Shown here: in pieces, positions 27,303-33,931 of the stretch
Layout of the letters: every line of letters starts with the position of its first letter
Position numbering within the stretch: position 1 is the first letter of the stretch
Virus record (IMG/VR): IMGVR_UViG_3300046167_000090
Coordinates: 1 to 49,358 of that record
DNA length: 49,358 bases
Direction: 5' to 3' (one strand)
Source of the DNA: a virus
Notes under the pieces: generated by a model
What the model saw: only the letters and a program-made list of their open reading frames with translations
Told to the model about the DNA's origin: nothing
The model's database searches: none
Position numbers and translations under genes: made by a program

Positions 27303-29944
27303 TTATTGATACTTAGTTCCGACGTGAGAAACTATAACCCGATCTGATTTCTTCTTGACAGTTATAACTCTGTTTTGTTGTTTCTTGACGGTTATAACTT
27401 TGTTTTGTCGTTTCCTTACGGTGATACATTTGATTAAAGGTATGTATGCACTGTCCAGTATTATTTCTGCTTTGACCCTGATAAGTCTAGAGTCTCCTGA
27501 CTTCAGGTCTCCTCCACCAACAATAGTGCGTTCTGCAAGACCATCTACTTCGTGCGCAGTCTGCTTGATAGGAGTAGATAATGCAACCCTCGTTACAACA
27601 CCTGCTCCGACTACAACCGATGTCTGTGCTTTGATGTTAACATCAGAACGTATCTCACGTTCAGCGACACCGGAGACTTCGTTGTCTGTTGGTTTCAACG
27701 AAGAAGAGATAGAAATAACTTCACGTTCACCATCACCCGCGACCACAGATACACCGACTTCTTCTGCGGTTAGATCTGCTTCTATTGAACGCACAGTCCT
27801 CTTGACAACTGCGACCACTTCAGAATTGTCGACCTGCTCAATGCCCTGTTGAGTTACAATCGTTCTCTCTGCGACGCCGGACACATTGGAGTCGTCTACT
27901 TGCTCCATACCAGAGGAAGTTATCTTACGTTGTGCTTCACCGGTCACAAGGTTGCTGTTATCAACAAGGGTGCCGGTTGAAGTTATTGTTCGTTCTGCGA
28001 GACCATCGATAGTAGATGGACCGGAGTTGACGTCGAGGTCCAGTTGCCCCTCATCGTCGATTACTCGTTCAGCAATACCAGACAAGACAGACTGCTGAGA
28101 TTGGACAGCACCAGAAGCATTTACTGTGCGTTCCGCAAGACCATCTATGGTAGACGGATCACTGTTGATGTTAAGGTCTAATTGATCTTCATCGTCAATT
28201 ACACGTTCTGCTGTGCCTGCCAGAGTAGAAGAAACTGTATTGAGTTCTACAGAAGTTAGTCTTCCGATGTTGGCAGTGCTTAATATCTCAGATTGGTCGG
28301 CAACCAAGGTTGCGGTGGCGATGGTGGAACCGACGGAGATAGTTCCATTCATAGAACCATGGAACTGACAGTTGTAGAACAGGTTGTCTGGTGCGTCGTC
28401 AGGAACAACAAAGGTTATTGTGCCACTTTGCGTTCCGTTGTTTGTAACACCATCGTTGTATGCGTTTCCAGTGCCAGTGCCGGATACAGAGTTGATCCAG
28501 AATGGGTGACCAGAAGCATTGACGTTGAACACATATGTCCAACCGCGTTTGAATTCTAGAGAAGCATTCGCAACACCATCGATGAGGTATGCCCCAGCAC
28601 CGCTGTTGGTGACAGTGTATGTTACTGTCTGAGGTGCGGTGGAACCAACTACAACGATAATTCTTTCTGCAACACCAGTGACTGTTGAAGGGTCACTGTT
28701 GATGTTAAGGTCTAATTGATCTTCGTCGTCAATTATACGTTCAGCAATACCAGACACCGAGGAAGTTTGTGCTTGCTCGACACCTGTTCCTTCCAGTATA
28801 CGTTCACCAGTTGCATCTACGGTAGAATTATCGTCGACCAGAACACCGGCACCGACAACAGTCCTTTCGGCAACACCGGTTATTTCGGAAATCTGTGCCT
28901 GTGGAGTTGCGTCGATATCGTGGACGGTGCGTTTAACTGTTGCGTCGACCTGAGAGTTGCTGTCAACGACGACAGCAGAGACTTGAGTAATGACCTTACG
29001 TTCTGCGTCACCGGCGACTACTATAACACCGACTTCTTCTGCGGTGAGGTCTGCTTCGATTGAATTGATTGTTCTTTCTGCGACACCAGATACAATGGAC
29101 TCTTGTGCCTGCTCGACACCAGTGCCGGTTACCGTTCTTCCACCGGAACCGATGACATCTGACTCAGATACTGTTATGTCAGTTTCGACATCGACTACTG
29201 TTCTTTCAGCAACACCGGTTATTTCGGAAATCTGTGCCTGTGGAGTTGCGTCGATATCGTTGGATGATCTTTCTACTACGGCAGTTACTTGGGAGTCATC
29301 TCCCTGCGCAATACCGTCGACGACAATCTTGACAATTTCTGGGGTGCCGACTATAGTGGATGGGTTGTCTACTACCAGATTGCCAGAGGAAGTTATTATG
29401 CGTTCTGCGACACCAGCAACAGTAGATTCTTGGGTCTGTAGGACAGATTGTCCATTAACCTTGCGACCTGCAATGCCGTCTACTTCTGATTCTTCATCCT
29501 GTCCGATACCAGATTCGGTAACGATTGTGCGTTCTGCAACACCGACAATTGTCGACGGATCGGAGGTCAACTCTTGGTCGAGTTCGTTTGTCTCGACTTC
29601 CCTCTCGGCGACGCCAGAGGCAGTAGAAGAACCGACTGTCATCGAACCGACAGCAGTGATCACTCGTTCTGCTGTGCCGTCTACATCAGAGTTATCTGAC
29701 TGTAATGTACCCTCACCAACTCCAATGACTTCCGCAACTCCGGATATCTCAGGAATTGTCGGTGTTGAGTTCTACAACGAGTATTTGTGTCTTGGTGACG
29801 TAATCGTCATCGACATAACCCGCTTCGACATACAGTTCTAGAATTGACGATGATGCCAAGACAAGTGCCCTACGATAGGATGAATGGTCCACTCATAACC
29901 AGTTCATGGGGTTGCCATGAGACTCTATGAATGGGATTGCTCAT
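27303..29944 (-). CDS. VAER-repeat virion protein with cupredoxin domain, frame broken twice near its start
   Basis: The uninterrupted part reads from about 29750 to 27303 and consists of some 25-30 degenerate units of 20-35 residues ending in GVAERTI-like strands. A cupredoxin-like domain interrupts the array (DNA about 28330-28640) with a full type 1 copper set: His in GHPFWI (28506-28508) and CQFHGSM (C-x2-H-x2-M, spacing as in amicyanin). The C-terminus has three 11-residue basic repeats (VITVKKQQNR type). The true N-terminus lies upstream: ATG at 29942-29944 gives MSNPIHRVSWQPHELVMSGP and FILS, then ALVLASSSILELYVEAGYVDD after skipping one base near 29872, and ISGVAEVIG after one near 29751. 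The joined length is about 879 residues. Role in the virion is inferred. Confidence 0.75.
27328..27428 (-). repeat. Three 33-base tandem repeats at the end of the VAER-repeat gene
   Basis: Units of 33 bases encode CITVRKRQNK, VITVKKQQNR and VITVKKKSDR before VIVSH. The first differs most. A basic beta-strand ladder at the C-terminus may anchor the protein or bind an acidic surface. Confidence 0.75.
28870..28921 (-). repeat. 52-base exact direct repeat, copy 1
   Basis: Identical to 29209-29260, 339 bases away and in the same frame. It encodes DIDATPQAQISEITGVAE. Exact identity at silent positions points to recent duplication or gene conversion within the array. Confidence 0.85.
29209..29260 (-). 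repeat. 52-base exact direct repeat, copy 2
   Basis: Partner of 28870-28921, encoding the same 17-residue phrase. Flanking units differ, so only this part was copied recently. Confidence 0.85.
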
Positions 29945-31831: not shown

Positions 31832-33931
31832 TTAAGATTCAGAGATCTTACAGTACAGTGTATATGTCTCTATAGTTGTACTTAGGGCAACCAGAGTCGT
31901 CCCTGTATACTGGGCAGAATACTGGGAAGTATAGTTTGACGAGAATTGTCCACTAAACTGTGTGGTGTATTGTCCAGTGTATGTTGTTGCAACGAGTCCC
32001 GTGAATTGTCCTGCCTGAGGACCAATGAAGTTTCCGGCATACTGTCGTGATCCAGCATACTGCCCAACATAGTTTCTATCACCAGAGTAGTTGTCAGAGA
32101 ATGCCCTCTCTCCGGCAAACTGTCGTGTTCCACTGAAGTTTGTTGAGGCACTTGTATATTGTCCACCATAGTTTCTATCACCAGCATATTGTCTGGTTCC
32201 GGAATATTCAGCACTTCGGGTTCCAGCAAACTGACCTGCTCCGGTAAAGTGTCGTTCTCCAGTATATTGTGCCGATGCTGGTCCAAGGTAGTTACCAGAG
32301 AAGTAGGCAATTCCGTTACGACTTCCTGCGAAGTATGCGGTGCCAGCATTTGCTCCAGAGAAGTATTGTGTCTCATAACCAATACTTGAGTAATACTCCG
32401 TCCTGCTGTTTGGAGAAGTAGAGGTATTGGTGGTCGGAGGGTTGGTGGAAGGCGGGTTCGTAGACGCCGAATAGTATGTCGGCACAGGCACTGGACCGAA
32501 TGGAGTAGTTACTTGGTAAAACGGTGCACCAGAAGAACCACTATTGGTGTTACCTGGAACCGGATTACCTGGAGTGTATCCAGTATAGGTGGTGCTACCA
32601 GTAAAGGTCGCAGAACTGTTAAACCCAACTGGACGGAAGTAGATCGCAGTGTAAGGGTAGTAGACAGTACCAGCATAAGAACCTGAGTACGGGAAATACC
32701 CTCCACGAGCACCAGCGTAGTTTGTTTGGAAATATCTGGTAAACTGTCGTTGACCGGTGAACTGTCTGTTTCCTGCGAACTGTCCACTTACAATGCCAGT
32801 AAAGAATTCGGTGCCACCAGTGTATTGCCCAGCATAGTTTCTATCACCTGCGAACTGTCTGGTTCCACTGAAGTTAGTTGCGGCACTTGTGTATTGGTCT
32901 GCGTAGTTCCTCTCACCAGAGTACGGACCAGCATAGTTTCTTGATCCGGCATACTGGTTAGTGTACGCACGGTTTCCAGAGAAAGCAACCTGTCGGATAC
33001 CGGCAAACTGCGTTGGTACGTCAGCGAAAGACTGCCCTGTAAACTGGGTTGTGTATTGTCCAGTGTACTGTCTGGTAAACTGGGGAGTGGTATACTGCTG
33101 AGATGTATACTGGAGATCCTGTGTAGTATTTCTTGTGTCGATTGCCGTGCCACGGGCAACCCAAGTTCCAGAGTCAGTCGGGGCACCTTGGGCAGATGAA
33201 CGCAACTGGTAAGAACCCACTCCAGATGCTTCCATTCCAGCGAGGAGCAACGTCGTCAGTGTAGACCTACACTCGGTGGCATCCATCTCCTGTATATCAG
33301 GAGCATCACTGTCCTTCAACCGAAGGAGGAAAGAAGCAGGGGTTTCGTTGGTGTGGTCAGTAGCAGAAGATCCTGCGGCAAATGCATTCTTACGCCAGAT
33401 GCTATAAGGTACAGAACCAGTTGCCAATGTATCAGAGAATACTGCTGCATCCCACTCAACATAGTCGGCAGACGGTTGTGTAGCACCAATTCTGAAAGAA
33501 CCGTGCATCTCGTTTGAGTGCACTTCTTCGGCAAGTCGTATGCCCAACTTAATGCCAGAAGCAGAGTCCATCTCGTAGATGTCACCACTACTATCAGAAG
33601 CAAGGAGGGGAAGTTCTGGCACCTCGTTAAAGTCAGGTCCAGTGCTATCCATCATAAACAGGAGAGTTGTAGTTGAACCAACGCTTAGAGAAGTTCCAGG
33701 GTGAGTACCGACTGGTTGTTGGTAAAACGTGTCAACGAAAGAACCAATGGTAGATCCGGAAGCGGACGCTTGGACGTTACCGTAGAATTGTGCTCCATCA
33801 GAGTCGTAAGAAGATACCCAGTTGATTGCTGCTTCTTGCGACCAGTAACCTTCCTCGGTGGCAGACGGCACTTGTGCGACGTCTGTTCCGGACAGAGTTA
33901 GAGGGATGGACTTGTATAATTCAGAAGACAT
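31832..33931 (-). CDS. Tyr/Phe-Gly repeat virion protein
   Basis: 699 residues. The first 270 residues are a folded head with SFRIGATQPSADYVEWDAAV and FLLRLKDSDAPDIQEMDATE phrases, ending in a region DTRNTTQDLQ. From about residue 275 to 685 the chain is a low-complexity array of short units with an aromatic-x-Gly core: QFTGQ, RNYAGQYTG, RQFAGDRNYAG, NFSGTRQFAG. A Pro/Thr-rich linker (PGNPVPGNTNSG, NPPSTNPPTTNTS) interrupts it near the middle. The last residues (TLYCKISES) leave the pattern. Similar NYTGNF-type repeats exist in other marine T4-like phages, but no function is known to me. The start has TATATAAAGT before ATG and no clear ribosome site. Confidence 0.75.
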   Translation of the reverse strand: MSSELYKSIPLTLSGTDVAQVPSATEEGYWSQEAAINWVSSYDSDGAQFYGNVQASASGSTIGSFVDTFYQQPVGTHPGTSLSVGSTTTLLFMMDSTGPDFNEVPELPLLASDSSGDIYEMDSASGIKLGIRLAEEVHSNEMHGSFRIGATQPSADYVEWDAAVFSDTLATGSVPYSIWRKNAFAAGSSATDHTNETPASFLLRLKDSDAPDIQEMDATECRSTLTTLLLAGMEASGVGSYQLRSSAQGAPTDSGTWVARGTAIDTRNTTQDLQYTSQQYTTPQFTRQYTGQYTTQFTGQSFADVPTQFAGIRQVAFSGNRAYTNQYAGSRNYAGPYSGERNYADQYTSAATNFSGTRQFAGDRNYAGQYTGGTEFFTGIVSGQFAGNRQFTGQRQFTRYFQTNYAGARGGYFPYSGSYAGTVYYPYTAIYFRPVGFNSSATFTGSTTYTGYTPGNPVPGNTNSGSSGAPFYQVTTPFGPVPVPTYYSASTNPPSTNPPTTNTSTSPNSRTEYYSSIGYETQYFSGANAGTAYFAGSRNGIAYFSGNYLGPASAQYTGERHFTGAGQFAGTRSAEYSGTRQYAGDRNYGGQYTSASTNFSGTRQFAGERAFSDNYSGDRNYVGQYAGSRQYAGNFIGPQAGQFTGLVATTYTGQYTTQFSGQFSSNYTSQYSAQYTGTTLVALSTTIETYTLYCKISES

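Follow-up and report, generated by a model that had tools for sequence, protein, structure and literature searches.

The locus analysed here raises the question of why a repeat-built protein of a marine phage should carry what looks like the complete ligand set of a type 1 copper site. The window, by which we mean the whole 49,358-nucleotide stretch of the IMG/VR record IMGVR_UViG_3300046167_000090, encodes proteins matching PHROG families for the major head protein, portal, sheath, tail fibres, baseplate wedge subunits, hub lysozyme and amidase; this gene content marks it as the structural module of a marine T4-like myophage. Its portal protein shares 57% identity with the portal of Phage C48C1 and 49% with the portals of Pelagibacter phage HTVC008M and cyanophages. 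The neighbours of the repeat-built protein, P0001, are syntenic with those of uncultured relatives, for example L160 (sheath 77% identical), where the homologous repeat protein is longer and likewise contains the domain. The position of P0001 in the tail/baseplate cluster, together with its gp9 homologues, would place the protein on the virion. Elsewhere in the window, the minus strand encodes a 699-residue protein (31832–33931) composed of short [QR]-x-[YF]-[AT]-G-like repeats (QYTGQYTTQFTGQ..., QFAGxRxYAG), for which no PHROG or Pfam match was found; a relative of this protein adjoins the repeat protein in L021–L023.

P0001 is listed as 786 amino acids from a GTG start (27303–29663, minus strand), with repeats open to about 29771. 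As the initial annotation had noticed, the protein contains a genuine repeat array: 19 copies of a V-x-G-V-A-E-R-like motif, repetitive also at the DNA level, lie on both sides of a cupredoxin-like domain, in an N-terminal array (28644–29663, minus strand) and a C-terminal array (27426–28325, minus strand), the latter followed by a basic C-terminal tail of tandem ITVKKxxN-like units (27303–27425, minus strand). Homologues with the same architecture are encoded by L001–L003, L020–L023, L160 and L177. The N-terminal repeats alone gave zero matches among named phages, and a search of viral contigs for relatives of the whole protein, using patterns that were too specific, confirmed none. Matches of P0001 to Sigma70_r4_2 and DUF2335 fell under the cut-off and were located in the repeats, and were disregarded. 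Two near-alike repeat units (DDEDQLDLNINSDPST) occupy 28131–28231 and 28665–28765 on the minus strand, one on either side of the domain, and their DNA is 78% identical; this flanking pair suggests that a unit was duplicated around the cupredoxin insertion. Upstream of the listed GTG, the repeat frame stays open for 36 codons, up to a stop. A conserved P0001 N terminus (TTG at 29859, LASS...GYVDDDYV; region 29664–29860, minus strand) sits in a different frame from the repeats, whereas the same N terminus and repeats form a single open frame in the relatives L022 and L160. This leaves the true start of P0001 uncertain and makes a frame break near 29770 likely, whether real or an assembly error.

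The domain itself comprises residues 341–446 of P0001 (28326–28643, minus strand), a compact stretch that is unlike the remainder of the protein; the residues and position that had been assigned to the copper-site motif in the initial annotation were correct. Its four predicted copper ligands are His386 in GHPFWI (28506–28508), followed, within YNCQFHGSM, by Cys432 (28368–28370), His435 (28359–28361) and the axial Met438 (28350–28352), all on the minus strand. Among its 786 residues, P0001 has just 5 His, 2 Cys and 3 Met, and four of these ten make up the ligand motif. CQFHGSM is the sole C-x2-H-x2-M in a six-frame translation of the whole window. A chance motif is excluded by homology, because the domain recurs in 311 phage records at E ≤ 1e-5. 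A CuA site was ruled out, as there is no second Cys, and so was a metabolic plastocyanin gene, given that the domain lies within a repeat protein of the tail cluster. The initial annotation had proposed a search against cupredoxin families: neither Pfam nor NCBIfam contained a family that matched the domain at cut-off, and PF00127 (Copper-bind) had no match anywhere in the window. PHROG 677 and PHROG 9158 end in the same domain.

A structural model of the domain was obtained with AlphaFold2 from an alignment of 111 sequences, consisting of the window domain and 110 relatives taken from the loci. This model had a mean pLDDT of 95.5 and eight strands; the single-sequence model reached a pLDDT of only 41. 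His48 (model numbering) lies just ahead of the strand formed by residues 50–53, Cys94 ends the next-to-last strand (residues 89–94), and His97 and Met100 are in the loop preceding the last strand. Known type 1 copper sites have their ligands in the same strand and loop positions, which is the canonical cupredoxin layout. A Foldseek search of the PDB returned cupredoxins, with rusticyanin as the top match (E = 4.5e-6; TM-scores across the matches moderate, mostly 0.5–0.66, with r.m.s.d. of at least 4 Å), followed by AcoP, copper nitrite reductase, laccases, pseudoazurin with an amicyanin loop, plastocyanin and auracyanin. By sequence, the single domain found no match in the PDB with phmmer, and the family profile found marginal matches only, including nitrite reductase, plastocyanin and azurin. 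The β-sandwich insert described in the initial annotation is thus borne out by the model, on which the domain belongs to the cupredoxin fold, an eight-stranded Greek-key β-sandwich, and the His...Cys-x(n)-His-x(n)-Met set of type 1 ligands is predicted to occupy its canonical positions.

Whether the four residues behave as one unit during evolution was assessed in viral relatives. Because whole-domain searches favour ligand-bearing copies, viral contigs were scanned with degenerate DNA patterns that are blind to the ligands; these encode N-x-Y-N-D-G-V-x-N-N-G and I-T-F-x-V-P-x2-A-P-x2-L-Y-Y, and neither peptide contains a ligand residue. Among the matches listed, 130 distinct viral domains matched either peptide. 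His, Cys, His and Met were all present in 67 of these 130 listed domains, Cys and the second His were both absent in the remaining 63, and there were no discordant cases. Again among the matches listed, the first His was found in 67 of 67 Cys-bearing domains and in 5 of 63 Cys-less domains; for Met, the corresponding counts were 67 of 67 and 32 of 63. When all 4,371 column pairs of the listed matches were ranked by weighted, APC-corrected mutual information, the three pairs among the first His, Cys and the second His took the first three places: Cys432–His435 ranked first, and the pairs of His386 with each of these ranked second and third. The first His and Cys are 46 residues apart in the sequence, and the triad spans up to 49 residues. 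The initial annotation had named free loss of Cys, His or Met in homologues as the point on which its reading turned. About half of the ligand-blind viral relatives listed indeed lack the site, yet Cys and the second His were never lost separately, so that the proposed four-ligand set is both present and co-varying. A wider set of 170 domains, which adds loci from ligand-bearing pattern searches, gave the same three top-ranked pairs, with 107 complete domains, 63 lacking Cys and the second His, and 0 discordant among the matches listed.

Because residues this distant are kept or lost only jointly, the pattern is the one predicted for a metal site, and both the set of ligands and the intervals between them match type 1 copper. 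The ligands thus appear to be conserved as a functional unit, as they are in type 1 copper proteins. A role for zinc, or a structural role for the residues with no metal at all, such as a buried Cys with two His, would agree with the survival of the fold in many relatives that lack the ligands. We consider this very unlikely, as the joint loss of the first His, Cys and the second His over up to 49 residues, with Met in every Cys-bearing copy listed, is what type 1 copper predicts. The ligand-free relatives form a sister class in large tail/baseplate structural proteins (for example, L203:3913-6093, with the domain at residues ~205–302, and L171:8325-10676), in which the ligand positions hold F/L/Y, A/N/S and Q/T/E, and often M; proteins of the L171 type match PHROG 677 and 8215. 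Since such relatives exist, the fold does not depend on the metal. Taken together, the model and the ligand pattern indicate that the P0001 domain very probably contains an intact copper-type site, and, as far as sequence can tell, the domain probably binds copper.

The history of the site was traced on a tree of the 170 domains from which the four ligand columns had been removed, leaving few columns. Cys and the second His changed on the same 12 branches (overlap 1.0), and the first His changed on 11 of those 12 (overlap 0.79); by comparison, the branch overlap of any column pair free of ligand columns was at most 0.24. Parsimony on the best tree gave 11 losses and 1 gain of the ligand set, on a poorly resolved topology: of the 12 ligand changes, only 2 are required by well-supported branches. 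The joint ligand pattern, with its 0 discordant cases, does not rest on the tree. Repeated loss of this kind would be expected if a copper domain derived from a host had been reused as a spacer and the site were now a relict in the course of being lost, and the same domain does occur in bacterial secreted proteins. However, the ligand-bearing class shows almost no partial decay, and 18 of 19 full-length domains sampled from named isolate phages are complete (that of S-B05 is ligand-free), which makes a decaying relict very unlikely.

The distribution of the domain was examined to place P0001 in a wider context. The 311 phage records found by tblastn (E ≤ 1e-5) are nearly all from Synechococcus and Prochlorococcus phages, and the homologues are frequently annotated as gp9, ‘baseplate wedge tail fiber connector’. 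In Syn19, the domain forms the C terminus of a gp9 that carries T4_gp9_10_N; in ACG-2014e, it lies at the C terminus of an S8 (subtilisin-like) peptidase (L212:4549-6609). The podoviruses P-SCSP2 and P-GSP1 also carry it. The closest domains, in L001–L003, are 66–69% identical to that of P0001 and are likewise found inside repeat proteins. A stand-alone small copy in S-SCSM2R, annotated as PetE (XQU50115; L215:2821-3327), bears the signature of the P0001 domain, and to judge from this signature is probably misnamed rather than a plastocyanin; an S8 peptidase gene adjoins this copy. Fold matches in the viral structure library BFVD include phage lectin-like, YHYH and S74 proteins. Strong fold matches were also seen there for small ‘beta-sandwich proteins’ of pithovirus-like and marseillevirus-like giant viruses (A0A481Z6J5, A0A481YVH3 and others). 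Bacterial copies occur in proteins that are secreted or resemble lipoproteins, from Bacteroidota, Acidobacteria, marine Alphaproteobacteria and other groups, and the one Bacteroidota protein tested has a CHRD domain alongside the cupredoxin domain. Eight loci (L102, L123, L125, L126, L130, L137, L139 and L140) encode marine bacterial proteins in which an N-terminal NDIIIPTND...YRG segment precedes a tandem pair of the domain; these are mostly alphaproteobacterial (PS1, OCS116 and Rhodobiaceae).

These contexts bear on whether the site might be a working redox centre that exchanges electrons at the host surface or in the periplasm, for example with host carriers or with a trigger of the phage itself. 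The type 1 ligand set includes the axial Met, the best fold matches are among electron carriers such as rusticyanin, and true plastocyanin genes are known in cyanophages, which carry them as auxiliary metabolic genes (PMC10436341). However, no redox partner was recognized within the window, and the domain is found in diverse tail, fibre and protease proteins as well as in secreted proteins of non-photosynthetic bacteria; we therefore regard a redox role as improbable.

The explanation towards which we lean, with moderate confidence, is that P0001 is a fibre-like virion protein with a copper-site cupredoxin module that serves as a displayed adhesion or spacer domain, the role being the weakest step. 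A module with a type 1-like site, formed by His386, Cys432, His435 and the axial Met438, would have been inserted into a fibre-like repeat protein, and the site would bind one copper ion. Copper would probably be loaded in the periplasm or once the cell has lysed, and not in the cytosol; it is likely that the virion carries a copper site. The domain would most plausibly act in adhesion or as a spacer, with the bound copper rigidifying the sandwich at its loop end, the point at which a partner or a ligand on the host surface would be met; P0001 would thus have in metal-clamped form a domain that other tail proteins use metal-free. Electron transfer is possible and is not needed for this explanation.

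Marine picocyanobacteria are sensitive to copper, and this would suit a role in metal capture, whether tail copper aids adsorption through a copper-handling protein of the host surface or the phage mops up toxic copper. There is a parallel in iron, which is bound by the HxH motifs of tail fibres and for which a Trojan-horse-type idea has been proposed (PMC11705849). The few sites expected per virion, however, would provide little copper buffering, and metal capture seems no more probable to us than a redox role. A bolder proposal is that marine T4-like phages carry redox-capable or copper-gated adsorption domains, such that cell-surface copper governs attachment or baseplate triggering and a widespread, undescribed metal dependence exists; we think this unlikely, if slightly less so than either of those two roles. 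The preferred reading remains a copper-clamped adhesion or spacer domain.

Cupredoxins, plastocyanin genes borne by phages (PMC10436341) and iron in phage fibres (PMC11705849) are already known. Our search of the open-access literature, with subscription papers and preprints outside its scope, found no paper describing cupredoxins within virion proteins of phages, those of the baseplate and tail fibre included. If copper is bound, the baseplates or fibres of abundant ocean phages would be copper proteins, virion metalloproteins of a class for which that literature yielded no description, and phage adsorption would be tied to marine trace-metal chemistry. The ligand-free versions in other tail proteins provide a natural experiment. 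In addition, the cupredoxin domain accounts for the C terminus of PHROG 677, which lacks a Pfam model.

Finally, the domain was compared with known systems, using rusticyanin and amicyanin sequences identical to the deposited PDB chains. Rusticyanin and AcoP of Acidithiobacillus are the best fold matches of the P0001 domain. The NPTL, GHSF/GHPF, YYVCQ/YYNCQ and final Met-x-Gly segments of rusticyanin and P0001 align, and hhalign of the family profile against rusticyanin (P = 3e-5) placed GHPF on GHSF and YNCQFH...M on YVCQIPGH...M. By contrast, rusticyanin has the spacing C-x4-H-x4-M, as opposed to C-x2-H-x2-M in P0001, and is a periplasmic electron carrier rather than a phage tail-cluster protein. 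The likeness to amicyanin (1aac) put forward in the initial annotation holds for the loop, in which the C-x2-H-x2-M spacing is identical (CTPHPFM versus CQFHGSM); for the fold, rusticyanin and AcoP are the closest solved structures. Relatedness to amicyanin across the whole domain was not supported, the profile match being weak (hhalign E = 0.006, probability 6%), its first His lies in MPHN rather than GHPF, and amicyanin is a single-domain periplasmic protein. The PetE protein encoded by the plastocyanin auxiliary gene offers another cupredoxin in cyanophages; plastocyanin is a photosynthetic carrier with the spacing C-x2-H-x4-M. The HxH iron sites of T4 gp37 and marine phage fibres also put a metal in a tail protein, but the metal, the ligands and the fold are different (PMC11705849). 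Among phage proteins, the likeness is to PHROG 677, the cyanophage gp9 baseplate wedge tail fibre protein connector, the C-terminal ~130 positions of which correspond to the P0001 domain; all four ligands were present in every one of 10 gp9-annotated domains sampled, and Syn19, S-SSM5 and P-SSM2 are among the cyanophages with an intact gp9 domain. The N terminus of Syn19 gp9 is T4_gp9_10_N, a Pfam match that P0001 lacks, so only the C-terminal domain is common to the two proteins, and in P0001, unlike gp9, this domain is surrounded by a repeat array.
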